A stretch of 39,593 nt of DNA from a virus: positions 1-39,593 of IMG/VR virus record IMGVR_UViG_3300034096_000521; one strand, written 5' to 3'. The translations under genes were made by a program, and so were the position numbers. Within the stretch, counting starts at the first letter, position 1; the number at the start of each line of letters is the position of its first letter. The notes under the pieces are model-generated. The model was given only the letters and a program-made list of their open reading frames with translations, had not been told where the DNA came from and did no database searches. Shown here piece by piece: positions 1-39,194 of the stretch.

Positions 1-127
1 ATGGAGGCTGGCAATGGCTGATAAGAAGATAACTGCTTTAACGGCGCTAACTGGCGCCAACACGGCTAGCACAGATGTGTTCCCTATTGTGGATGTGTCG
101 GCTACGGAAACTAAAAAGATTACGGCA
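1..127. repeat. Terminal direct repeat, left copy (contig circularity overlap)
   Basis: These 127 bases are identical to positions 39467-39593. A perfect overlap of exactly 127 bases at the two ends is what a de Bruijn assembler using k=127 leaves on a circular or circularly permuted molecule. It is therefore best read as an assembly overlap, not a biological terminal repeat. Merging the ends gives a 39,466-bp circle and joins the 39194-39487 gene to the gene starting at 14. Confidence 0.95.
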
Positions 128-433
128 GCAGAGTTGGCTGCCGCTATTGCTGTTATTGGTTTGGATGCTGGTGGTGGTGTTCCAACAAAGATTCATGGTG
201 TTGAGTTGCCTGCTACACATATGATTCGTTTTGAGGGTGCTACCGATAACAATTTTGAAACTTTTTTGACGGTTGTGGACCCGACTGCTGACCGTACTCT
301 TACTTTCCCTGATGAGACTGGTACTGTCGCTACTCAGGCTTATGCTGATTCGGCTGCTAGTGCAGCCGCAGCAGCGGCAACAGTTGATTTTGCTGATGCC
401 GATAATGTTTTATGTAACGCAATATTTAACTAG
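14..433 (+). CDS. Small Ala-rich structural protein, fibre/appendage-like
   Basis: A 139-aa protein. Its N-terminus (ITALTALTGANTASTDVFPI followed by a TKKITAAEL stretch) matches the start signature common in phage tail-fibre and appendage proteins of aquatic phages. The C-terminus is an Ala-rich, probably helical segment (residues about 110-125). The ATG has GGAGG at 3-7 and overlaps the end of the upstream gene by 8 nt once the contig ends are joined (39480-39487). It opens the fibre cassette that runs to 3106. The family resemblance is by eye; exact role (fibre, fibre adaptor or spike base) is inferred. Confidence 0.7.
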   Translation: MADKKITALTALTGANTASTDVFPIVDVSATETKKITAAELAAAIAVIGLDAGGGVPTKIHGVELPATHMIRFEGATDNNFETFLTVVDPTADRTLTFPDETGTVATQAYADSAASAAAAAATVDFADADNVLCNAIFN

Positions 434-466: not shown

Positions 467-829
467 ATGGCAACATTTACTAAGAAGATTCTTTCAGGTA
501 GCACAGACGGCAAAGCCGTCAAGGTCGCCGCTACCGCTACTGCTGGTACAACGATTCATACTGGTTCGACTACGACTACGACTCTTGATGAGGTTTGGAT
601 TTATGCAGTAAACACTTCAGCATCATCAGTCAAATTGACGATTGAGTGGGGCGAGGCTACAGCACCTGATGGCAATATCGAGGTTACTGTTCAGCCTGAG
701 GCTGGTTTGGTGACTGTGATTCCTGGTTTGTTGATTAAAGGTAATGCGACTGCGCTTGTTGTTAAGGCGTTTGCTGCGACAGCGAATGTGATTTGTATTC
801 ACGGTTTCGTTAATCAGATTACGGTTTAA
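467..829 (+). CDS. Predicted virion structural protein (beta-rich)
   Basis: A 120-aa protein with a clear AGGAG 7 nt before the ATG. The sequence alternates Thr/Val/Ala-rich strands with little charge (for example VKLTIEWGEATAPDG and ITV at the C-terminus), typical of small beta-sandwich virion proteins. It lies between an appendage-like protein and the first glycine-rich fibre gene, so a structural role in the fibre assembly is likely. No specific family is recognised with certainty. Confidence 0.7.
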   Translation: MATFTKKILSGSTDGKAVKVAATATAGTTIHTGSTTTTTLDEVWIYAVNTSASSVKLTIEWGEATAPDGNIEVTVQPEAGLVTVIPGLLIKGNATALVVKAFAATANVICIHGFVNQITV

Positions 830-831
830 CT

Positions 832-1704
832 ATGCCGAACAGGCGTGAACTCGGATATGTAAGTGCTGGAAGCACAAGCACTATTCCTGCTACTACAGGT
901 TACGGTGTGGCTACTGGTGGCTCATCTAGTTCTATAACTGTTTCATCACAGAACTATACGCTTCTAACTTTTACTAGTGACGGCAATCTTGTTGTTTCTT
1001 CGGCAGGTTTGTTTGATGTACTGATGTTCGGTGGAGGTGGTGCAGGAGGTTATGGCGCAAACGCCGCCTGGCGAAGTGGCGGTGGAGGTGCTGGCGGTAT
1101 CTTACAAACAACGGTTTATTTAGATGCTGCAACTTATGCAATAAAAATTGGTGCAGGTGGTGCTGGTAGTAGTGCTGATGTAGTTTCTGGTTTTGGTTCT
1201 AGTGTTGGAACTTCTGCAAGGTCTTTAAGTATTGCTGGTGGCGGCGGCGGCGGAGGTGTTACTGCTGGTGATACGCCACCTGCTAAAGGTGGTTGCGGTG
1301 GCGGTGCTTATATGCGTACATATTTGACTGGCGCTGCGGCATTTGTTGATGGTGTTACTGGATATGCTGGCGGAAATGCCTCAGCCGAAGATGGCGCTGG
1401 TGGAGGTGGCGGCACTACGGCTGCAGGTGTAAATGGCACAAGCGGAGAAGTAGGTGGCAATGGCGGTGCTGGTTACGATGTAAGCGCATTTATTGGTGGT
1501 AGCACACTTTATAAAGGAGGCGGAGGCGGTGGAGGTGGTGGTACTACTGCTGGAACAGGTGGTTCAAGTATTGGTGGAACTGCTGGCATGGATTCATCTG
1601 GTGGAACTGCTGCTGCGAATACTGCTAGTGGTGGCGGTGGCGCAAAGAATGGTGTAGGTGGTTCAGGCGGTTCAGGCATTATTTATGTCAGGTTCAAGGT
1701 GTAA
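832..1704 (+). CDS. Glycine-rich tail fibre / adhesin-like protein, copy 1
   Basis: A 290-aa protein. The N-terminal segment (residues 1-60) includes LGYVSAGSTSTI, followed by a strand-rich linker and then a Gly-rich domain from about residue 63 (DVLMFGGGGAGG) to the end, with many GGGG runs. This matches the glycine-rich domain found at the tips of phage fibres, where polyglycine helices pack together as in T-even gp38-type adhesins. The C-terminus (GSGIIYVRFKV) is the usual closing strand. It starts 3 nt after the preceding stop. The N-terminus is shared with the 1938-2822 gene, so the two are paralogues. Receptor binding is inferred. Confidence 0.8.
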   Translation: MPNRRELGYVSAGSTSTIPATTGYGVATGGSSSSITVSSQNYTLLTFTSDGNLVVSSAGLFDVLMFGGGGAGGYGANAAWRSGGGGAGGILQTTVYLDAATYAIKIGAGGAGSSADVVSGFGSSVGTSARSLSIAGGGGGGGVTAGDTPPAKGGCGGGAYMRTYLTGAAAFVDGVTGYAGGNASAEDGAGGGGGTTAAGVNGTSGEVGGNGGAGYDVSAFIGGSTLYKGGGGGGGGGTTAGTGGSSIGGTAGMDSSGGTAAANTASGGGGAKNGVGGSGGSGIIYVRFKV

Positions 1705-1706
1705 TT

Positions 1707-1934
1707 ATGTCAGCACAATACTTCGCACAACTAGACGACAACAATGTAGTAACCCATGTCGCTGTAGTGCAACGAGAGTTCCTTGAAGCGAACCCGCAAC
1801 GCTATACGGGTCGTTGGGTTGAAACCTTTTTTGATACTGAGGGTAAAACTTATGCTGGTATCAGTTTCACTTACGATGAAGCAACACAGGATTTTGTTGC
1901 ACCACCAAGCCCAGTTATCGAGAGTGAGGTTTAG
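1707..1934 (+). CDS. Small fibre-associated protein (YAGI-YTYD family), copy 1
   Basis: A 75-aa protein with an N-terminal QLDDNNVVTHVAVV strand pair and a C-terminal YAGISFTYDEATQDFVAPP motif. This pattern recurs in small virion proteins of cyanophages and other aquatic phages, usually beside fibre genes. It follows the glycine-rich fibre gene by 2 nt, as the 2822-3106 paralogue follows the second fibre gene. It may be a fibre chaperone or a fibre-tip subunit; the sequence does not decide between them. Confidence 0.75.
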   Translation: MSAQYFAQLDDNNVVTHVAVVQREFLEANPQRYTGRWVETFFDTEGKTYAGISFTYDEATQDFVAPPSPVIESEV

Positions 1935-1937
1935 TTT

Positions 1938-2822
1938 ATGGCTGCAAGGTTGATGGGTTATGTTTCGGCTAGCAACACACCGACAATCGTGTTTCCTACG
2001 CCTGCCACTTTAGATGTCGATTATCTTGTTTTAGGTGGTGGTGGCGGCGGCGGTATTGGGAACACCAACGGTAGCGGTGGTGGTGGTGCTGGCGGTATGC
2101 GTTGCACAGTTACAGGGACAGGCGGCGGTGGCAGTCTTGAAAGTGCTTTGACGATTGCAAAAAATGTTAATTATTCGGTTGTTGTTGGTGCAGGCGGCGC
2201 AAAACATAACAGCGGAAATAGCAGCACTTTTGTTGTTACGGCGCAGGGTGGCGGTAGAGGTGGAGCCGCCAATAATGGAGCATTAATTAAAGATGGTGAT
2301 ACGGGTGGCAGCGGTGGTGGCGGCGGCAACATAAATGGTGTGGGTGCAAGCGGCACAACTAACCAAGGTTACGCAGGCGGTGACGCTGCTGGAAATGTGA
2401 ACCCATATCGTGGCGGCGGTGGTGGTGGTGCAGGTGCAGTTGGTGCTACGGGTGGTAGTGGCGCACCAAATGGCGGTGCAGGCGTAGCGTCAAGCATTAC
2501 AGGTTCATCCGTCACTTATGGCGGCGGCGGTGGTGGCGGCGCAGACAATACTTCCGCAGGTAGCGGCGGTGCAGGCGGCGGCGGCGCAGGTGGCGTAGGT
2601 GGCATAGGCACGAACGGGACAGCAAATCGTGGCGGTGGTGGCGGCGGTTCAGGCGGCGCACTATTCAGCACAACAGGCGGAAGCGGAATAGTTATCTTGC
2701 GTTACTTGACTTCGGGCAACACAATTACTGTTGGCGCAGGTTTGACATCATCATCGGCAACAGACGGAAGCCACACAGTCGTGTCGTTTACCGCTGGTAG
2801 TGGAACAGTAAGTTGGGCATAA
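1938..2822 (+). CDS. Glycine-rich tail fibre / adhesin-like protein, copy 2
   Basis: A 294-aa protein with N-terminal MGYVSASNTPTI, matching LGYVSAGSTSTI of the 832-1704 protein. The Gly-rich domain starts near residue 30 (DYLVLGGGGGGG) and fills most of the chain, ending in SGIVILRYLTSG and a short beta-rich tail. It is the second of two paralogous fibre units. Its stop codon overlaps the next gene's ATG (TAATG at 2820-2824), indicating translational coupling with the small partner. The repetitive GGT/GGC codons are likely recombination-prone. Confidence 0.8.
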   Translation: MAARLMGYVSASNTPTIVFPTPATLDVDYLVLGGGGGGGIGNTNGSGGGGAGGMRCTVTGTGGGGSLESALTIAKNVNYSVVVGAGGAKHNSGNSSTFVVTAQGGGRGGAANNGALIKDGDTGGSGGGGGNINGVGASGTTNQGYAGGDAAGNVNPYRGGGGGGAGAVGATGGSGAPNGGAGVASSITGSSVTYGGGGGGGADNTSAGSGGAGGGGAGGVGGIGTNGTANRGGGGGGSGGALFSTTGGSGIVILRYLTSGNTITVGAGLTSSSATDGSHTVVSFTAGSGTVSWA

Positions 2823-3106
2823 TGGCACATTACGCAATTATTGACGAACGCAACATAGTTATTCAAGTAATAACAGGCGTTGAGGAAACCGTTACACAAA
2901 CCGACACAGACGGCACAGAAGTTGGTGGTTCTGCTGAAGCGTGGGAAGCGTTCTATACGGCGCAGTTAAAAAACCCAAACTTGTATGTAAAACGCACTTC
3001 ATATAACGGCACTATTCGTGGAACATACGCTGGCATCGGTTACACCTATGACCCTGTTGCTGACGAGTTTGTTGCACCCGTAGTTGAAGAACCTGCCGAA
3101 CCTTAA
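2822..3106 (+). CDS. Small fibre-associated protein (YAGI-YTYD family), copy 2
   Basis: A 94-aa protein starting at the ATG that overlaps the upstream stop (TAATG); a TTG nine bases earlier is less likely. It begins MAHYAIIDERNIVIQVI and ends with YAGIGYTYDPVADEFVAP, the same frame as the 1707-1934 protein but with a longer middle. The pairing of one such protein with each glycine-rich fibre suggests matched partners. Confidence 0.75.
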   Translation: MAHYAIIDERNIVIQVITGVEETVTQTDTDGTEVGGSAEAWEAFYTAQLKNPNLYVKRTSYNGTIRGTYAGIGYTYDPVADEFVAPVVEEPAEP

Positions 3107-3109
3107 AGT

Positions 3110-4756
3110 GTGGGTCGCAATCTAACAAGGTGGCTTATACCGCTACCAGCAATCCTGTTTGCGGTTATACCGCAAAATGCTAACGCAGAACCAGTTGCGG
3201 GTTTAACAACCACCTATTATACGATTGATGTAATCCCGCCAGTTCAATCAACTGACGAATACCCTGTCTGCGGTACTGAGACAGAGAACAACATCAATCG
3301 CAGTTATGATGGTGAACCATACGAGGATTGCACGGGCGACCTGTTCATGGTTCACATGACAGGCTACATAGACATCCCTGAACACAACACGATTGAGTTC
3401 ATGCTCGCACACGATGACGGCGGTGAGATAACTATTGACGGCAACACATTCGGTGTTTGGAATGACCAAAGTTGTTCGTGGAGTATGTCAGACGAACTAG
3501 AACTAAATGCAGGTAGCCAGCCTTTAGAACTATGGATGTACGAAAACGGTGGCGGAACCTGCCTGATGCTCGCATGGAAAATAGATGGCAACGGCTGGGT
3601 GATTGTGCCAGACGAAGCGTTTACAACTAGCGCAGTTTCGCAGACAACTTCAACAACATCTTCAACAACCACATCCTCAACGACAACCACATCATCTACC
3701 TCGTTACCCACAAGTACCACGGAAGTTGCCACAACAACCACAAGCACGTTACCCCAAACAACAACATCAATTTTAACGACTTCATCTACAACAACCCTTC
3801 CCATAACGACGACCACAGTTCAGTCAACAACAACCACGCAAACGACAACAACAACGTCAACGACGACCATCCCAATTCAAACAACGACCACAACTTTTGT
3901 ACCATACACCCCTCCTCAGACAACGATTGCTATTCCCACCATCGAGACTCAACCGATAACCACCATAACCTTACCCGAAACCATAGTTGTCTTACCCGAA
4001 ACCACAGCACCAGAAACATTTATAACCGAACCAGACGAAGTGATTTTGCCTGACACAACTGAACCAGAAACATTTATACCCTATCCTGACGGTCCTCTTG
4101 AAGAACCTGTTGTGCCTGTTGAGACAACCATTCTTGAGACATTTTTTCCCGACTACGAAGTCGGGCCTGTTCTTGACGAAACAGAACAGCCAGAAGACAC
4201 AATAGAGCTGCCGGAATATATAACAGAAACAACACTATTAGAAGAAACGGATTCATCACCTATTACTCTACCCGAACTTGTAGCAGACGAACAAGTAACA
4301 GAAGTATTGGAAGAAGTCATCGAAGATGAACCCGTCACTGACGAACAAGTAGAACAAATCTTAGAAACCCTTACCGAAGCCGCACCTGAACAGATTGTGG
4401 AGGCTATTACCCAAGTCTTAGCCGCGGATATCACCTCAGACCAAGCCACCGAGATAGCGTCAAGCCCAGAAGTCTTGGCTGCTATCACCGAAACTCAGGC
4501 TGAAGAACTCTTTGAACAAATCGTTGTGGACGAACTGTCTGAGGAACAGTTGGAGGCGTTTACTGAAGCCATTCAGGAAGCGCCAACAGAAATTAAACAG
4601 GCTTTTGAGAAAACTATTGATATTTTTAGTTCCAAATTTGATGAATATGTGCCAACCGGCTCTAACGTGCCGGTTCGCACCCGTAGAACCCTTGTAGTTA
4701 TTGGGTCCTTGTTAACGATGTTACCAAGTGTCCATATTAAGACAGGTAAATTATGA
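3110..4756 (+). CDS. Secreted PA14-domain surface protein with Thr-rich stalk and C-terminal membrane segment
   Basis: A 548-aa protein starting at GTG 3 nt after the upstream stop. Residues 1-26 form a signal peptide (basic start, hydrophobic core, ANA cleavage site). Residues about 28-165 resemble a PA14-like beta-barrel, a carbohydrate-binding fold (HMTGYIDIPEHN, MLAHDDGGEITIDG, WMYENGGGTC). Residues about 175-265 are almost pure Thr/Ser, a mucin-like stalk, then Pro/Glu/Thr-rich to about 395, acidic helical repeats to about 510, and a hydrophobic segment after RTRR near residue 525. The final ATGA overlaps the next gene. A signal peptide is odd inside a virion gene block: it may decorate the host surface, aid lysis, or block superinfection. 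Confidence 0.8.
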   Translation: MGRNLTRWLIPLPAILFAVIPQNANAEPVAGLTTTYYTIDVIPPVQSTDEYPVCGTETENNINRSYDGEPYEDCTGDLFMVHMTGYIDIPEHNTIEFMLAHDDGGEITIDGNTFGVWNDQSCSWSMSDELELNAGSQPLELWMYENGGGTCLMLAWKIDGNGWVIVPDEAFTTSAVSQTTSTTSSTTTSSTTTTSSTSLPTSTTEVATTTTSTLPQTTTSILTTSSTTTLPITTTTVQSTTTTQTTTTTSTTTIPIQTTTTTFVPYTPPQTTIAIPTIETQPITTITLPETIVVLPETTAPETFITEPDEVILPDTTEPETFIPYPDGPLEEPVVPVETTILETFFPDYEVGPVLDETEQPEDTIELPEYITETTLLEETDSSPITLPELVADEQVTEVLEEVIEDEPVTDEQVEQILETLTEAAPEQIVEAITQVLAADITSDQATEIASSPEVLAAITETQAEELFEQIVVDELSEEQLEAFTEAIQEAPTEIKQAFEKTIDIFSSKFDEYVPTGSNVPVRTRRTLVVIGSLLTMLPSVHIKTGKL

Positions 4757-4920
4757 AGAAACTACTTAACTATCTAGCTGAGAACACTTGGACTTGGGCG
4801 GGCACGGGCATGGTATTGATTACCTTGTCTGGACCTACTTTTCGTCAGGCTGTGTTCTTGACAGGTACTGCCGTGGTTCTTCATTCCGTAATAACCCTAA
4901 GTCAGAAAGATGAAAAATGA
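4753..4920 (+). CDS. Small two-helix membrane protein, holin-like
   Basis: A 55-aa protein coupled by ATGA overlaps at both ends (4753-4756 with the PA14 gene and 4917-4920 with the next). It has two probable membrane helices, residues about 13-30 (WTWAGTGMVLITLSG) and 33-50 (AVFLTGTAVVLHSVITLS), and a charged C-terminus (QKDEK). Size, topology and the neighbouring second membrane protein fit a holin or holin partner. Assignment rests on topology only. Confidence 0.65.
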   Translation: MKKLLNYLAENTWTWAGTGMVLITLSGPTFRQAVFLTGTAVVLHSVITLSQKDEK

Positions 4921-5162
4921 ACTCAACAATTGCAAAAGCCCTAGACCTTGGACAACGACTTGTATCGTTGTTTATTGCCAGCGCATTACCAATCATCACA
5001 GGTGGAGCAATCCTCGGTGTTGATGTGATTAAGTCGGCTGGTGTTGCAGGACTTACAGCCTTGTTTGGTGTTGTACAGAAACTTGCCGCAGCGTCAGTTG
5101 ATGGCGAGCTTACATCAACAGAAATTAGCGCAGCGTTTGGAACTAAGACCAAGAAGAAGTAA
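4917..5162 (+). CDS. Putative holin
   Basis: An 81-aa protein with two hydrophobic stretches, residues about 15-38 (LVSLFIASALPIITGGAILG) and about 40-58 (SAGVAGLTALFGVVQ), and a basic C-terminus (TKTKKK). This matches small actinophage holins. It overlaps the upstream membrane gene by ATGA and the large terminase by TAATG. Unusually, the endolysin candidate lies far away at 23751-24245, so lysis genes are split. Membrane location is well supported, holin function is inferred. Confidence 0.65.
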   Translation: MNSTIAKALDLGQRLVSLFIASALPIITGGAILGVDVIKSAGVAGLTALFGVVQKLAAASVDGELTSTEISAAFGTKTKKK

Positions 5163-26364: not shown

Positions 26365-26702
26365 TTTTTCCTCAACTTTAAACTAATGATTTGTTTGTCA
26401 TCTGTATAGGCTACACCATTGAGGGCATCGAGAATAGCTTTGGCGTAATTATCTATATCCCCACGCAGTTTTGATGGATTCTTTGATGGCCTTAATTCTT
26501 TAATAATTATTTCTGTTTTGTCTTTGTCAAAAATTAACTCAACTTCTAGTGGGCCATCAGCAAAGGCAACACCCGTATAAAGCTCTGAAATAAGTTTCTC
26601 GTACTCTCTTGTTTCTTTGGGTGTGTAGGTATGGCCTGAACGAGTACTTCTTGGGCGTTGTTTTGAACGCGGCTTAACAGCAAAGATTTGTTTGTGAATC
26701 AT
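26361..26702 (-). CDS. rusA: RusA-family Holliday junction resolvase
   Basis: A 113-aa endonuclease that resolves four-way DNA junctions during phage recombination and packaging preparation. It shows the RusA pattern: KPRSKQRPRS near the N-terminus (10-19), TYTP (25-28), and the acidic core GDIDNYAKAILDALNGV (D82, D84) with YTDDKQI (D101/D102). Length is typical. ATGA overlaps link it to the primase gene before and the PD-(D/E)XK-like gene after. Confidence 0.93.
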   Translation of the reverse strand: MIHKQIFAVKPRSKQRPRSTRSGHTYTPKETREYEKLISELYTGVAFADGPLEVELIFDKDKTEIIIKELRPSKNPSKLRGDIDNYAKAILDALNGVAYTDDKQIISLKLRKK

Positions 26703-27580
26703 TCGCCGTAAACGTCAGCAATGATTTTTGAGATGTGCATATCGCCATCTTCACGCAAATAAAATTTACCCCAACGAATATCAGCAGAACGAATAATACC
26801 ATAGGCAACATCAGCCGTTAAACCATCAGACCTAAGCCTGTAAGCAAGACGCACTAATGTGCCAGAACGGTCTGAGTCTGGCAACGGTCCATCCATAAAC
26901 ATTTTTAGCGAATAAGGTCTTAATAGACTTTTTGCCACATCAACAGGAATGGCAGCATTTCCACCAACAAAACTCAATGATTGCTTTGGTACATACATGT
27001 CTGCCAATGGCATTAATTGATTTTCCGTAACACGATTTTTTATGGCTTCTTCAACAAAAACATTAAGCGGCATTGGTTTGTCTGCGCTATCCATAATGAA
27101 GCGAACACCCATTGGTTCAAACAATTCACCTGGATACGGCAAACGAACATAGTTGCCGTAACCAGAAGCTTCTTCTTGTTTTGGATTAATTTCTTTAGCC
27201 GGCACTTTGACGGCAGAGTGTGCGGCGAGCAACGCTCGACGCATCACTCGCGCGGCAACTGGCTCACTTGCAAACACCCAGATGTGAAAGCCCTTGACTG
27301 TGCGTTCAACCCAACTTTCAATAGACTTCAACTTTAGGGCTAGTTGTATATTGCGGGCTTGGTCAATATCATCCACATCAATGTCTGAACACCCCCACCA
27401 AACTGTGTTGGTGGGAAGCATTGGATATATGCCGATATATTCTTGCCCCCACAAATGTTTCAAATACTTTGATGGAGTAACTTCTTCTTTGATGCAGCCA
27501 CCTTCCCACGAACCGTAGGCGTCTGTACGACCGGCAAACAAAGAAGCAAAGTTTTTAACGAGTTCAGAATTGTCGTTCAT
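26699..27580 (-). CDS. AEP-type (TOTE/PrimPol-like) primase
   Basis: A 293-aa protein from the ATG preceded by GAGG; the longer in-frame start is inside the helicase gene. It carries the archaeo-eukaryotic primase signature: VWWGCSDIDVDD (catalytic D66, D68), VKGFHIWVFA (H99) and YGNYVRLP (143-148), with YIGIYPML upstream. The C-terminal DSDRSGTLVRLAYRLRSDGL region resembles a PriCT-like helical domain. It would make primers at the phage fork with the DnaB-like helicase encoded just upstream (17-nt overlap). No phage polymerase is present. Confidence 0.85.
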   Translation of the reverse strand: MNDNSELVKNFASLFAGRTDAYGSWEGGCIKEEVTPSKYLKHLWGQEYIGIYPMLPTNTVWWGCSDIDVDDIDQARNIQLALKLKSIESWVERTVKGFHIWVFASEPVAARVMRRALLAAHSAVKVPAKEINPKQEEASGYGNYVRLPYPGELFEPMGVRFIMDSADKPMPLNVFVEEAIKNRVTENQLMPLADMYVPKQSLSFVGGNAAIPVDVAKSLLRPYSLKMFMDGPLPDSDRSGTLVRLAYRLRSDGLTADVAYGIIRSADIRWGKFYLREDGDMHISKIIADVYGE

Positions 27581-28616
27581 GAAAACCTCGCAAATATTGT
27601 TTTGGTAAATCACCATTTAGTAGTGGCATTAGACGACCAGTAGCTAAATCTATTTCATAATCAATGTCATCTACAAGTTGACCAGCTGGTCGTTTGTTTT
27701 TCAACAAACTGACTGTAACGGTGTACTCGTGAATCTTTGCTTCGTATCGCAGAGAATCGAGGCGCTCCATTGAGCGCTCTGAGTGTGTTTTGTCAAGCTT
27801 GTTGATGATTTCGTTCATCTCAGCCATGATGGAATATTTTTTACGACGCACACCAATGACCGATGTTGCTTGTTGTTCGCCACCAAAAGCACCTGATGAC
27901 ATGGTTAGTTTTGCTCCATCAGCGCCTGAGGAACGGGAAGTTTGATGCAACACCAGCATTGGTATGTCATGTCTACGACCAAACGATTTAACGAATGTTG
28001 CTTTGTCGGGAACCGTTTCGCCTGCTTCTACTAGGTCAAGGTAGTCCACGACTACAAGGTCAGGTACTTGTCCCCACACATCACACACTTCGTTATATGC
28101 CCGCTCCATGTCTATGCCGGTCAATGGTTGGTCAAACACAGCGAGATTGGGGAAGTTTTCTTCGGCGGTTTCTCTAAGTAAATCAATTGCGTCAGTGTCG
28201 TCCATTGCAACTAATCGTTCTAGTTCTCGAGCATCAATGCCGTGGTACATGCAGGTTAGTTTTGTTAAAACAAGTTGGCGTGGTTCGTCTGGAATGAACA
28301 TTGCAATGTGTTTGTCGCGATTCTCAAGCAGGGAATGCAACAACAATAATGTTTTGCCACCGTGCGCATACCCAATCATCATTGACATTTCGCCTGCAGC
28401 AATGCCACGCATTTCGGCATCTATTTGTGGTAATCCTAAATGGATTCTTTCTTGTGGGCTTTGTGCCCATCGGACAAAAGAATGAGCCGCTTCTGAAAGT
28501 GGTTCATACATTTTGTATTCACTTGGCGGGATAATAGAAGATGGTGGAGAATCAGGACTGACCTGCTTCTCCACCATGTCCCAACCCGCAGAAATTTGCT
28601 CTGCGGTAAGTTTCAT
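27564..28616 (-). CDS. DnaB-like replicative helicase (RecA-fold ATPase)
   Basis: A 350-aa protein. Walker A is GYAHGGKT (82-89), preceded by GIAAGEMSMMI; Walker B is LVVVDYLDLV (D191), and a sensor/arginine region VLHQTSRSSGADG follows. This is the RecA-fold motor of DnaB-family helicases, without a full N-terminal DnaB domain (only about 60 residues precede the core). The stop overlaps the primase start by 17 nt, giving a helicase-primase pair. It begins immediately after the stop of the previous gene. Confidence 0.9.
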   Translation of the reverse strand: MKLTAEQISAGWDMVEKQVSPDSPPSSIIPPSEYKMYEPLSEAAHSFVRWAQSPQERIHLGLPQIDAEMRGIAAGEMSMMIGYAHGGKTLLLLHSLLENRDKHIAMFIPDEPRQLVLTKLTCMYHGIDARELERLVAMDDTDAIDLLRETAEENFPNLAVFDQPLTGIDMERAYNEVCDVWGQVPDLVVVDYLDLVEAGETVPDKATFVKSFGRRHDIPMLVLHQTSRSSGADGAKLTMSSGAFGGEQQATSVIGVRRKKYSIMAEMNEIINKLDKTHSERSMERLDSLRYEAKIHEYTVTVSLLKNKRPAGQLVDDIDYEIDLATGRLMPLLNGDLPKQYLRGFHERQF

Positions 28617-30570: not shown

Positions 30571-30876
30571 TTACTCCTTTAGTTTTATTTTGGAAATTTT
30601 TCTATGTGTAAATAATCTGCCGCCCCAAACGCCTACACAATCATATTCTTTAGCAAAGTTGAAACATTCTTGTTTAACTTTACATTCATTGCATGTTTTG
30701 AATGCGTTATAAAGATTAGAGCCAGGGCTTATAGAAATTCTACCTCCTTTTCCATCTGGCGGAAAGAACCAATCACTAGGGCAATTGGTGCAATTTGCGT
30801 ATTTATAAATCGGATTAAGTTCTTTGGATATTTTTTCGTTTTTTAAATCTTTGAGTTTTACCCATTTTTCAGCCAT
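30571..30876 (-). CDS. whiB: WhiB-family iron-sulfur transcription regulator
   Basis: A 101-aa protein. It has the WhiB pattern: first Cys in YANCTNCPSDWFFPPD (C29 or C32), CNECKVKQEC (C62, C65, C71: CxxCx5C) and the GVWGG turn (82-86), then a basic C-terminus. WhiB proteins bind a [4Fe-4S] cluster and the host sigma factor. The GGAGG ribosome site overlaps the end of the upstream gene. Its presence indicates an actinobacterial host. It may redirect host RNA polymerase to early or late phage promoters. Confidence 0.9.
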   Translation of the reverse strand: MAEKWVKLKDLKNEKISKELNPIYKYANCTNCPSDWFFPPDGKGGRISISPGSNLYNAFKTCNECKVKQECFNFAKEYDCVGVWGGRLFTHRKISKIKLKE

Positions 30877-30878
30877 TA

Positions 30879-31106
30879 TTACCATCCTCCCATTTCGATA
30901 AATGATTCACCATTGATATCCCAACCTTCTTCACGAAGAAGTTGTGATATTATTTCACAACCGGCTTCATAAACGTATGATTGAAGTAATAGTTCTATAC
31001 TTTCTAGCGCAACACACGCAGCCGCACCTTTAAGGTGTGGCATTGCTTCGCGCACATCTGCATCTGTAAATCCAACAGATATTTGCATGGCATAATTGTC
31101 GCTCAT
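30879..31106 (-). CDS. Hypothetical early protein
   Basis: A 75-aa protein starting MSDNYAMQISVGF, with AAAGGA about 7 nt before the ATG and an ATGA overlap with the upstream gene. A longer reading frame to 31157 lacks support. It has two short helices around HLKGAAACVALESIELLLQ and a Gly/Trp-ended tail (FIEMGGW). Ends 2 nt before whiB. Family not recognised. Confidence 0.65.
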   Translation of the reverse strand: MSDNYAMQISVGFTDADVREAMPHLKGAAACVALESIELLLQSYVYEAGCEIISQLLREEGWDINGESFIEMGGW

Positions 31107-32745: not shown

Positions 32746-33777
32746 TTATTGTTTAATTTTTGTTTCACGTGTCATTTCTCCATCTTTTTCATCCCAATTA
32801 ATAAATGATTCACCGTATTCGTAGTGTTCCCAACAATTGCAATCTGTGTTTGCACAAGCTAGACACGTTTTGCAAGCGCCACAATGAGTGGCGCTTGGTT
32901 CTAACGCATCAACATAATAAATTGCGCCACAATTCCAACAATTAACAGTCGCATAATCTTGATTTGAATAATCTGTGAAGATTGTGATTTTGTTCATTAT
33001 TGAAGTATCTGGATACAGCTCATCTTGTATATAATCAACCGTGTCGTCAAATGTCCAAGCGCTATTTGTTTTATGAAACGAACTATTCCAACCACTAACT
33101 TCATCGTCCCAATCGTCATACTGACGATAAATATCAGTTTTGTTATCTGATTTTGGAGTACCAAGATATGGCGAACTATAGCCGTAACCATAATTGTAAT
33201 TTGAATATTTGTATCCGTAATTTTGTTTGTAGGAACTATTAGACCACCACATGCCGGCGTCCCAATGCCCAGATTTTTCATTGACGATATACCAATTATG
33301 TTTGGCTTTTTCGTTTGTAGTCAATACAACCAACTTGTTACCAATTGCCCAATTTTCTAATTCTTCAAATCTTTCTTGATTGTCGAGCGCTTCAACACCG
33401 CCAATCGCTGGAAGGATTAGTTCAGCAAACAGTTTTGTGTCTGAACGATGGTCGTTGATTGGCATTGTTAACGGCAAAATGCCGTTGTGTGCCAACACAG
33501 TGTCTGGCTTGCCATCAACATCAAATGGGTGACAATTGTTTATGTCGGTATGACCGTGTGTTGTAATACGAAAATGGAATAACGCAGGGCCACGATAGGT
33601 TTTTCTTAAATCACTCCATCGCAACCATAGTTTTTCGAAATCCATATCATGGTCTTTGATTATGGCAACACCTGCATGGATAGCAAAACCGAACCCATCA
33701 GGGTTTGATTTTGCGCTCACACGCGCTCGTTCATAGTCGAAATCAATGTTTTCTGGTAGGAAAGTTAATAAACACAT
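32746..33777 (-). CDS. Class II glutamine amidotransferase with C-terminal zinc domain
   Basis: A 343-aa protein beginning Met-Cys, so the Ntn nucleophile is C2. Class II GATase landmarks: CLLTF, NPDGFGFA (25-32), FHFRITTHG (68-75), HPF (83-85), LAHNG (95-99, oxyanion N98/G99) and SDTKLF (112-117). It would free ammonia from glutamine. After the catalytic domain come a Tyr/Asn/Ser-rich tract (about 180-203) and a Cys-rich end (C280, C283, C299, C302, C305, C308, C313, C315), probably zinc-binding. It starts 1 nt after the amidoligase gene, suggesting paired action. Not linked to any biosynthetic synthetase. Confidence 0.85.
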   Translation of the reverse strand: MCLLTFLPENIDFDYERARVSAKSNPDGFGFAIHAGVAIIKDHDMDFEKLWLRWSDLRKTYRGPALFHFRITTHGHTDINNCHPFDVDGKPDTVLAHNGILPLTMPINDHRSDTKLFAELILPAIGGVEALDNQERFEELENWAIGNKLVVLTTNEKAKHNWYIVNEKSGHWDAGMWWSNSSYKQNYGYKYSNYNYGYGYSSPYLGTPKSDNKTDIYRQYDDWDDEVSGWNSSFHKTNSAWTFDDTVDYIQDELYPDTSIMNKITIFTDYSNQDYATVNCWNCGAIYYVDALEPSATHCGACKTCLACANTDCNCWEHYEYGESFINWDEKDGEMTRETKIKQ

Positions 33778-33778
33778 A

Positions 33779-34819
33779 TTATTTTGTATCCGTTTCTGCT
33801 TGCAGAACATTTCTGCTATTAGCTCTAGTAATGAAATTTTGATATAGATTGTCTTGTGCTTCCGCAAATTTAAGCAATGGCGCAAACGAAGTTAGGGCAT
33901 TGTTTTTTATTGCTTCGGCAGCTGTTACTTGTTGCGAATAAGAAAATAAACAATGCACAAATTCGGCATATGCCAAAACTGTAGTAAAACGCAAAGATGG
34001 TCTAAAAATACGCAATTCGTGCGTATTGTAGTTTGAACGATTTACTGCAAGGTTGCGTTCAAATTGACCAGGTACATACTCGCCATTTTTGCGCACACCT
34101 TTAACAACTTCCAAAACAGTTGGTTTGTTTGCTATATCTAGATGTGTAGGTGCGCCCACAAAAGAATCTAAATCAAACTTAGCATAGCCTGATTGGCGAC
34201 CAGCAAACTTAACCAATGTTTTTTTGTTTTTGAATATGAAATACAAAAACTTTGCTTCGTGCTTGGTGTCAGTAAAAGCATTTTTAGATATATGAATGTG
34301 TAAGCCACACGTAGAAGTACCCCATGCGCGATAACCGTTTTTGCGCAAATAGTCTAAACATGTTTTGTAGCGTTGTGCGTGGTTTTGTAAATAGTTTAGT
34401 GTCATTGGATGCGACACAATTTCAAAACCATGATTGATTGAACAATCTTCTTTTAGATATACCAGACCATCAGCTGTATTGTTAATATAATTAGCAGCAT
34501 GAGACAAATAATTTTCATCAACTAACTCCGTTTCTAGTTCGATACCCATCATGGGTTCGTAAATGTTGTTTGTTTTTTGGTGTGTGAGTCTTGCGTTGCC
34601 GTCAGAGTGGTGAAAAATGGTTTCAGGTTTGTAGCTGTAACCATGAATGCCACTACTGTTGCTGTCATTTTCTGCTTCGTATTCTGCTTCGTGAATTACA
34701 TCTGAATAGCAGTCATCGCAATATTGGTCGCCTTCATAGCGGTTTATTTCGCGATTTGTTTCAAATTCGTATTCGCACCTATCGCAATAACCCAATTCTT
34801 CACTTGCTTGTCTTGGCAT
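33779..34819 (-). CDS. Phage amidoligase (GS-like COOH-NH2 ligase) with N-terminal zinc ribbon
   Basis: A 346-aa protein preceded by AAAGGAG. Residues 12-37 form a zinc ribbon (C12xxC15, C34xxC37). The glutamine-synthetase-like core shows GIELETE (92-98), LKEDCSINHGFEIVSHP (122-138), GLHIHIS (172-178) and THELRIFR (266-273), the metal and ATP-binding residues of the Amidoligase_2 family. Such enzymes form amide bonds with ATP, and in phages are predicted to modify proteins, peptides or wall components. The partner GATase-II gene directly follows. The substrate is unknown; a capsid, host protein or peptidoglycan target is possible. Confidence 0.88.
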   Translation of the reverse strand: MPRQASEELGYCDRCEYEFETNREINRYEGDQYCDDCYSDVIHEAEYEAENDSNSSGIHGYSYKPETIFHHSDGNARLTHQKTNNIYEPMMGIELETELVDENYLSHAANYINNTADGLVYLKEDCSINHGFEIVSHPMTLNYLQNHAQRYKTCLDYLRKNGYRAWGTSTCGLHIHISKNAFTDTKHEAKFLYFIFKNKKTLVKFAGRQSGYAKFDLDSFVGAPTHLDIANKPTVLEVVKGVRKNGEYVPGQFERNLAVNRSNYNTHELRIFRPSLRFTTVLAYAEFVHCLFSYSQQVTAAEAIKNNALTSFAPLLKFAEAQDNLYQNFITRANSRNVLQAETDTK

Positions 34820-38613: not shown

Positions 38614-38762
38614 AGCTCTCCTTAAACTCTGACTTGTGTACGCCTTAATCGCAACGCTTGGGGCGTTGCGATTAACAGCTAGTTGGGGAAACCGGGTTTT
38701 TCCGTTTCCCCCCCTATAGTCCCCCCCAAGCGTTACATGCGTAACGAAGTGCGTACACATTG
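38614..38762. promoter_or_regulatory. Divergent control region between the two arms
   Basis: A 149-nt gap between the first leftward and first rightward genes. It holds a perfect 13-bp hairpin TTAATCGCAACGC/GCGTTGCGATTAA (38645-38675), an 8-bp hairpin GGGGAAAC/GTTTCCCC (38685-38711), C7-TATAGT-C7 (38708-38727), a palindrome CGTTAC-ATGC-GTAACG (38731-38746), and inverted copies of TGTGTACGC at 38635-38643 and 38751-38759. The last lies just before the small terminase start. TATAGT is the best -10 on the + side. Promoters on both strands with operators are inferred. Confidence 0.6.
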
Positions 38763-39194
38763 ATGGCAAACTCCGAAGAAATGACCTTGACGGTCGCACA
38801 ACAAAACTATTTGGATTGGTTGTGCACCGCTCCGTCAGAGCGAGTGCCAGCCTCCAAAGCCAAGTACGCCATTGAGTACGGCGTAGATGAAACAACGCTA
38901 CGACGTTGGCAGAAAAAAGAAGTTTTCCTCAACGAATGGAAAAAGCGTGTGGACGACATTCAGGGTTCACCAGAACGCACACAAAAGCTTCTGGACACAC
39001 TTTACAACAAAGCCCTAGAGGGTGACACCAAGTCAGCCCAACTCTACCTACAGGCCACCAACCGTATGTTGCCACCTACGGTAACGGTTCAATCTAATAA
39101 GAAGGCAACGGAGTTGTCCGACTCTGAGCTCGATGAACTTATTGGGCAGATTGCTGCTCATGAGAAGTCGCGACGTAATTTTAAGGTGGTGTAA
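38763..39194 (+). CDS. terS: Terminase small subunit
   Basis: A 143-aa protein from the ATG (a TTG one codon earlier is less likely). The N-terminal half has a helix-turn-helix: TLTVAQQNYLDWLC, SKAKYAIEYGVDETTLRRWQ, as in small terminases that recognise the packaging site. The C-terminal helices (GDTKSAQLYLQATNRM) would oligomerise. It is first in the late arm, about 5.4 kb before the large subunit on the circle. A weak ribosome site overlaps the operator-like GCGTACACA. Confidence 0.78.
   Translation: MANSEEMTLTVAQQNYLDWLCTAPSERVPASKAKYAIEYGVDETTLRRWQKKEVFLNEWKKRVDDIQGSPERTQKLLDTLYNKALEGDTKSAQLYLQATNRMLPPTVTVQSNKKATELSDSELDELIGQIAAHEKSRRNFKVV

Follow-up and report, generated by a model that had tools for sequence, protein, structure and literature searches.

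Does a phage locus with two glycine-rich fibre genes, each followed at once by a small partner gene, represent a simple tandem duplication, or two adhesin modules with separate histories? We addressed this question in the IMG/VR virus record IMGVR_UViG_3300034096_000521 (the window; 39,593 bases), in which positions 832-3106 hold the fibre gene F1, its partner S1, a second fibre gene F2 and its partner S2. A first-pass annotation had proposed that the two fibres share an N-terminal YVSA motif, that each is trailed directly by a small YAGI-YTYD protein, and that the pair is a tandemly duplicated module that has since diverged, perhaps widening host range. We consider it probable that the block is a two-slot locus encoding a pair of fibres that bind receptors, each served by a minimal assembly chaperone of its own; sequence comparisons further indicate that the unit pair is not a young duplication.

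Two homologous fibre and partner units

The four genes are intact open reading frames (ORFs) in a single uninterrupted run, as annotated, and both fibres passed the Gly_rich_2 (PF21722) gathering cut-off of 24.3 bits (Table 1). Their N-termini aligned as RELGYVSAGSTSTI and RLMGYVSASNTPTI, respectively (BLASTP E 0.008), with the GYVSA stretch common to both, and the score over the first 40 residues was reached by 2 of 5,000 shuffles, bearing out the proposed YVSA motif. Similarity over the whole length and over the bodies exceeded that expected from composition (0 of 1,000 shuffles each). These shuffle tests indicate that the N-termini are related and that the likeness of the fibres is more than low complexity. 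Pairwise alignment showed the small proteins to be homologous as well (BLASTP E 6e-8; 0 of 5,000 shuffles), and PHROGs 14370 and 7759 each matched both of them. The annotated motif is exact for S2, which reads YAGIGYTYD, but S1 deviates from it with YAGISFTYD. S1 starts two bases past the F1 stop, and the F2 stop and the S2 start share one base.

Sequence searches placed these proteins in families of unknown function. At E ≤ 1e-3, PHROG 7759 matched 86 and PHROG 14370 matched 69 of 88 S proteins, whose middle part is variable. The S profile had just a chance-level match in the PDB (E 0.61, a pilus-biosynthesis protein), which was not used, and neither fibre had a PDB match by sequence at E ≤ 0.1. 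F2 gave no tblastn match in 50,697 phage records with the BLAST low-complexity filter on, which masks such proteins.

To place the block among its relatives, we scanned viral contigs with three queries (terminase, S2 and protein A, the conserved protein encoded directly upstream of F1) and kept the best 80 loci of each scan, which gave loci L003-L238. No fibre served as a query, and ORFs were classed by phmmer and hidden Markov model searches together with glycine content. A glycine-rich ORF lay directly upstream of 208 of 225 S genes, a total that includes overlapping loci and six window copies. Behind protein A we found 81 distinct intervals, thinned by identical protein sets only, so that L087 and L088, for example, are near-copies counted separately; 76 of these closed on a downstream marker and five ran into another A. 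Single-unit relatives do exist: the closed intervals comprised 38 with one fibre and one S (FS), 25 with two such units (FSFS), seven with two fibres and one S (FFS), two with a fibre only and four with neither. By inspection, both fibre-only loci (L048 and L208) hold a divergent S below the thresholds; the counts were kept as computed.

Two further layouts were seen in the survey, namely three A-F-S sets on one contig, plus a further S ahead of them (L214, 339-8817), and an A-F-S-F-S-A-F-S arrangement (L110, 332-5375). Many longer S forms (for example, L008 5920-6273) carry an extra conserved PYPSW-W-PP-P-W-E-W stretch of about 40 residues that S1 and S2 lack.

Constant anchors and probable cassette exchange

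Comparison of the two-unit loci revealed constant fibre N-termini, hereafter anchors, in front of variable bodies. All 24 FSFS intervals starting with the slot-1 anchor of the window carried the same two anchors in the same order (the L084 anchor was read separately), slot 1 opening with MPNRREL-GYVS and slot 2 with RL(M/F/T)GYVSASNTPT (six rows from MGYVS). Mean pairwise identity across 23 two-unit genomes, with the window included and L110 left out, was 0.97 in the slot-1 anchor versus 0.57 at F1 residues 27-60 (0.57-0.59 for the next residues overall), and 0.92 in the slot-2 anchor versus 0.34 at F2 residues 17-30 (0.34-0.41 overall). The C-terminal fibre ends had mean identities of 0.44-0.48, and the slot-1 S tail, which is IESEV-like, was fairly constant (0.69 over the last eight residues).

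The bodies behind these anchors differ in type and cross between slots. When S proteins were assigned by eye, after the data had been seen, to types (alpha, beta, gamma, delta, eps and other), slot 1 (n = 25) held 18 alpha, four gamma, two beta and one eps, and slot 2 (n = 27) held 15 beta, four alpha, four gamma, two delta, one eps and one other. The F1/S1 type occurred in slot 2 of L164, L167, L185 and L207, and the S2 type in slot 1 of L101 and L207. We read the moving element as a cassette, made of fibre body and small-protein body, behind a slot-specific anchor.

Anchors may also serve as general docking tags, since inspection of three of the four loci with neither gene showed identical or similar anchors joined to non-glycine-rich bodies (L232 6361-8300, L070 2208-3879 and L236 6370-6930). 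No S-like ORF of at least 60 residues was seen in L070 or L232, where a like anchor precedes a non-glycine body; in L236, a small ORF has a YAGI-like stretch, GWTYDGFEF, at its end.

Small partners covary with fibre ends

We then compared the variation of S with that of the fibres. Across 132 pairs, the S body correlated with the F C-terminus (Spearman 0.577; 0 of 999 permutations) and not with the anchor (-0.005), in a test that cut most slot-2 anchors about five residues late; with the correct cut (137 pairs), the values were 0.583 (0 of 499 permutations) and -0.012. Thinning to 117 pairs left the F-S correlation at 0.56 (0 of 999). In 55 F-S-P triples, with gaps of up to 700 bases allowed, F-S reached 0.69 (0 of 499), whereas S versus the next gene, the negative control, gave -0.02 (306 of 499). 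A segment matrix located the signal: S residues 1-25 correlated with the F end at 0.57, but with the last 15 S residues at only 0.08.

The same coupling is visible in the types, which were defined post hoc: 28 of 28 alpha S proteins stood behind VRFKV-like fibre ends, and 77 of 80 beta or delta S proteins behind GAGLT-TAGSG or FTAGTG ends. Typing by regular expression misassigned the C-terminal class of one S (L166). Complementarily, F C-termini were more alike in the seven two-F-one-S genomes than in 27 FSFS genomes (0.60 versus 0.32; Mann-Whitney p 0.008, from lineages that are not independent). Two features of tail fibre assembly chaperones (Tfa/TAP and gp25-like) were thus found in S: a gene directly behind the fibre, and covariation with the distal end of the fibre. 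Protein A, considered as a possible docking partner of the anchor, correlated with it over 83 pairs (Spearman 0.41; 0 of 499), but at 0.06 in the 25 with terminase; the ungapped terminase comparison is unreliable for rows that differ in length.

Predicted folds suggest a possible fibre-chaperone pair

Structure models point to the same kind of pair. The F2 model (mean predicted local distance difference test score (pLDDT) 92.9; residues 1-10 mean 55, residues 11-20 mean 66) has no helix of four or more residues. Its best fold match was the mycobacteriophage Bxb1 tail tip (9d93_Qb; Z 12.7, 158 residues, 34% identity inflated by glycine), which belongs to another kind of tail tip, followed by the fibre chains of cyanophage Pam3, 7ypx_A (Z 12.0, 158 residues, 2.6 Å; Foldseek rank 1, E 3.8e-3) and 7yfw_a (Z 11.6); the next row stood at Z 5.0. 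The match stops at F2 residue 262, the end of the solved gp24 chain (280), and the remaining F2 residues lie in the portion that varies with S. By family, and for F2 also by fold, F1 and F2 are likely glycine-rich receptor-binding fibres. The polyglycine adhesin gp38 of phage S16 was not among the F2 fold rows listed, which excludes nothing.

The S2 model (pLDDT 92.6) comprises eight short strands and one helix (residues 38-49). VIA-align ranked chain 7ypx_a first (Z 5.0, 58 residues, 2.4 Å, chain residues 3-60), below the tool's safe level, and 5yvq_B, a Mu-type Tfa, second (Z 2.4, 56 residues, 3.7 Å), again weakly; S2 has no sequence match to this Tfa and lacks its second domain. We take 7ypx_a to be the Pam3 chaperone gp25, by its 162 residues, the length given for gp25. 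In a viral fold library, S2 matched uncharacterised phage proteins (four at E ≤ 0.001), and two entries named tail fiber assembly protein at chance level only (E 0.8 and 1.5). That the F2 and S2 models independently matched two chains of one complex, Pam3 gp24-gp25, is the best functional clue, and S is likely a minimal one-domain cognate fibre chaperone, though not, at the level of sequence, a member of known chaperone families.

Several known systems resemble the block. Pam3 gp24-gp25 (7YPX; PMC9608196) combines a glycine-rich fibre with an adjacent small chaperone; F2 shares the glycine-rich lattice fold, and S2 matches, weakly, the N-terminal beta-sandwich region of the 162-residue chain. 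In contrast to gp24, F2 has a short anchor in place of a long N-terminal helical docking domain and about 30 more residues past the match, and the window phage has two units per genome. Alteromonas phages A5, V22 and P24 likewise show a fibre and its cognate chaperone shared together by distant phages, but the A5 and V22 chaperones are DUF4376 proteins, the chaperone body is alpha-helical, and the sections consulted describe no two-slot layout (PMC10579305). T5-like phage DT57C resembles the window phage in having two fibre proteins in one phage (PMC4728585).

Weighing the chaperone reading

A number of observations speak against cognate chaperones carried in exchangeable cassettes. For 64 fibres directly behind A, none of 499 permutations reached the anchor's correlation with S (0.297) or its correlation with the F end (0.379), and a separate 83-pair test gave 0.31 for anchor versus F C-terminus. 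The slot-2 S tail is not constant (0.38 over the last 14 residues in the 23 genomes). The S types were drawn up by eye, post hoc, although the permutation tests are independent of them, and of the seven FFS genomes, L198 (0.31) and L218 (0.22) have unlike F C-termini, with L199 intermediate (0.42). Among 152 pairs, the S start and the F stop share one base in 86, and in 30 the S start lies two bases further on. Structurally, the best S2 match is weak at Z 5.0, Foldseek found none in the PDB at E ≤ 0.001 (the Mu fibre/chaperone chain 5yvq_B ranked third, E 3.0), S2 lacks the C-terminal helical trimerisation domain of gp25, and S1 (75 residues) has no room for one. None of the 88 S proteins matched any Pfam tail-fibre assembly model at E ≤ 1 (19 families were matched). 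Finally, relatives of S do not directly follow a glycine-rich gene in Synechococcus phage S-SSM5 and in phage DSL-LC04, and a 6.9-kb stretch of OX376641 contains no glycine-rich ORF longer than 200 residues.

In the first slots, then, some cassette types accompany some anchors, through shared ancestry or restricted exchange, but the link between F and S is stronger. For the same 64 fibres, F-S stood at 0.488, and at 0.425 with the anchor partialled out, compared with 0.139 for anchor-S given F. As a side observation, cyanomyophage relatives of S lie after a glycine-rich ORF in Bellamy (L239, 5001-5435) and beside ferrochelatase and oxygenase genes in S-SSM5 (L242, 4001-4381). Among cultured phages, S relatives occur in Roseobacter phage CRP-143 (gp39-gp40) and in Synechococcus phage Bellamy (gp33-gp34).

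S might alternatively be a structural protein that remains on the fibre as its tip or cap and makes contact with the receptor itself. Such a protein would covary with the distal fibre end just as a chaperone would, the middle part of S is variable, and, according to PMC9608196, mature Ur-lambda and Mu phages retain their chaperones. The same paper reports Pam3 gp25 as undetected in virions, and it is this chaperone chain that S2 matches best, if weakly; we regard a resident tip as unlikely. Because the two genes overlap or nearly touch, some of the F-S coupling must be plain linkage, yet it is very unlikely that neighbourhood accounts for all of it, with S in an unrelated role: S homologs standing apart from fibres in S-SSM5 and anchors coupled to cassettes in first slots would fit such a view, but the nearby S tail shows no coupling to the S body (0.07-0.08), neither does the next gene in the triples, and L070 and L232, in which another body follows a like anchor, showed no S.

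Origin of the unit pair

The notion of a duplicated, then diverged module holds in so far as there are two homologous fibre and partner units with single-unit relatives; its simplest form, a local tandem duplication, is not supported. S1 and S2 are 93% and 80% identical, respectively, to copies in other phages, but only 37% to each other, and thus, judged by identity, are not each other's nearest kin. A two-unit block with the same anchors in the same order recurs in all 24 intervals described above, and switching between single and double units is scattered over the terminase tree. On this tree of 32 loci, the FSFS state needs six changes, five of them forced by well-supported branches; it is more clustered than the shuffle mean of 8.7 changes, with a value as low in 20 of 500 shuffles. 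The window groups with L005 and L006, both single-unit loci with an SRYGQRT anchor; relatives such as L003, L004 and L007 (100% terminase identity) lack a complete interval and so have no unit number on the tree.

A recent local duplication of one fibre and partner unit, followed by divergence within the lineage, would account for homologous tandem units with like anchors (GYVSA with GYVSA). Like anchors are likewise found together in other two-fibre lineages, ARRQLGYVSS with SYLGYVSS and RVSTYTSAWMPTGDE with RVSTYTSAWMPTGDE, which fits anchor duplication at some time; L100, with unlike anchors, is an exception (the second anchor of L205 was not recovered). We nonetheless judge a recent event very unlikely, because S1 is far closer to another phage's copy than to S2 and the nearest terminase relatives placed on the tree are single-unit with another anchor family. 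Nor is a recent duplicate visible in the DNA, where the block contains no long repeat and its direct repeats are short (22-33 nucleotides) and mostly glycine-codon runs. The matched anchors in several lineages fit either an old anchor duplication or a shared docking site.

L006 and L037 were compared with the window at the DNA level. Identity is 95.6% from 3109 on, reaches 99% or more up to 38439 and is 84% from 38603 to 780, but there are weak partial matches only between 780 and 3109. Since the flanks match and this segment does not, the fibre units appear to have been exchanged, as do, less markedly, the genes ahead of them.

A possible two-slot adhesin system

We propose that each slot is occupied by a glycine-rich tail fibre and a small assembly chaperone dedicated to it. 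Within F, the first 13-18 residues would be a slot-specific docking peptide, the remainder a glycine-rich lattice bearing receptor-binding loops, with a variable C-terminal strand segment at the end. While its own F folds, S would bind the C-terminal part of that fibre, much as Pam3 gp25 acts on gp24. The need for S to fit its fibre would make fibre body and S body pass between phages as a single cassette. Of the two recombination joins, one would fall right after the F anchor and the other within or past the S end, and a given cassette type could occupy either slot.

Whether these parts form a combinatorial system is more doubtful. Tentatively, slot peptides would let one virion display two glycine-rich fibres, for different or more receptors, fed from a shared cassette pool that can enter either slot, and the YAGIG-YTYD family would be one-domain fibre chaperones. 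If so, adhesin specificity would be exchanged wholesale without breaking virion assembly among phages with otherwise near-identical genomes, suggesting how phages reshuffle what they stick to. The YAGIG-YTYD family (PHROG 7759/14370), which is uncharacterised, occurs in many uncultured phages and is also present in cyanophages, would gain a testable function, S type could mark fibre-tip type in uncultured phages, and the site just behind the fibre anchor would offer a natural seam for exchanging fibre and helper as a unit. Fibre/chaperone modules shared between distant phages are already known (PMC10579305); this analysis adds the two-slot layout, the exchange of cassettes behind anchors that stay constant, and the function proposed for PHROG 7759/14370. 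No paper devoted to a two-slot glycine-rich fibre/chaperone locus appeared among those listed in searches of the open-licence PMC literature.

Genome setting

The window carries an exact 127-base repeat at its ends and is probably a complete circular assembly. Matches to portal (phrog_156), major head (phrog_9953), internal virion protein and terminase suggest a podovirus-like phage, and a WhiB-like regulator (30574-30885, minus strand; 8.9e-9) points to a probably actinobacterial host. No megablast match to window positions 1-25000 was found among the 50,697 phage records, and a terminase scan of genome contigs, for a prophage or host genome, yielded no relative.

Table 1. Features of the fibre block and its surroundings, with positions in the window.
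Feature	Position	Strand	Remarks
Small fibre-base-like protein (N139), possible fibre adaptor	14..433	+	PHROG 38058 tail fiber, 3.9e-6
Protein A, conserved (phrog_30535)	467..829	+	120 aa (amino acids); PHROG 30535, 1.6e-61; adjoins fibre slot upstream
F1, glycine-rich fibre, slot 1	832..1704	+	290 aa; Gly_rich_2 49.4 bits; phrog_2295, 1.3e-32
Slot-1 anchor of F1 (MPNRRELGYVSAG)	832..870	+	identity 0.97 in two-unit genomes
S1, small partner, probable minimal fibre chaperone (alpha type)	1707..1934	+	75 aa; PHROG 14370, 4.1e-20
Slot-1 tail of S1 (IESEV), probable cassette boundary	1917..1931	+	identical ending on differing slot-1 S bodies
F2, glycine-rich fibre, slot 2	1938..2822	+	294 aa; Gly_rich_2 51.6 bits
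Slot-2 anchor of F2 (MAARLMGYVSASNTPT)	1938..1985	+	identity 0.92 in two-unit genomes
S2, small partner, probable minimal fibre chaperone (beta type)	2822..3106	+	94 aa from ATG at 2822; PHROG 7759, 4.6e-20
Tail of S2 (VVEEPAEP), not a constant boundary	3080..3103	+	ending found on several differing S bodies
PA14 protein	3110-4756		PA14 domain, 9.3e-8; directly after S2
Small ORF	4753-4920		between PA14 protein and terminase large subunit
Small ORF	4917-5162		phrog_26427 'nuclease' match; weak match to holin PHROG
Terminase large subunit	5162		fibre block lies between small subunit and here
Terminase small subunit	38760-39191		fibre block lies between here and large subunit, across circular join
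ORF of 97 aa	39194-39484		between terminase small subunit and fibre block

Several neighbours recur with the block. An N139-type ORF adjoins it in a number of relatives, protein A is sometimes repeated along with the F-S units, as in L214, and relatives of the PA14 protein come after it in 60 of the 76 closed intervals. The PA14 protein, odd in a phage, possibly has a surface or lysis role; it has a probable signal peptide (by eye), a long Thr/Ser-rich stretch and an acidic later part. A diversity-generating retroelement or recombinase was considered as a driver of variation and rejected, with no reverse transcriptase or integrase in 30 Pfam-scanned ORFs.

Elsewhere in the window, on the minus strand, an Amidoligase_2-like gene (3.7e-5) adjoins a weak class-II glutamine amidotransferase-like gene (4.2e-4, below the cut-off) at 32749-34819, a possible pair for peptide or cell-wall modification. 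Also on the minus strand, a primase-like ORF (26699-27616) carries a TOTE archaeo-eukaryotic primase domain (6.8e-20) and adjoins a DnaB-like helicase.

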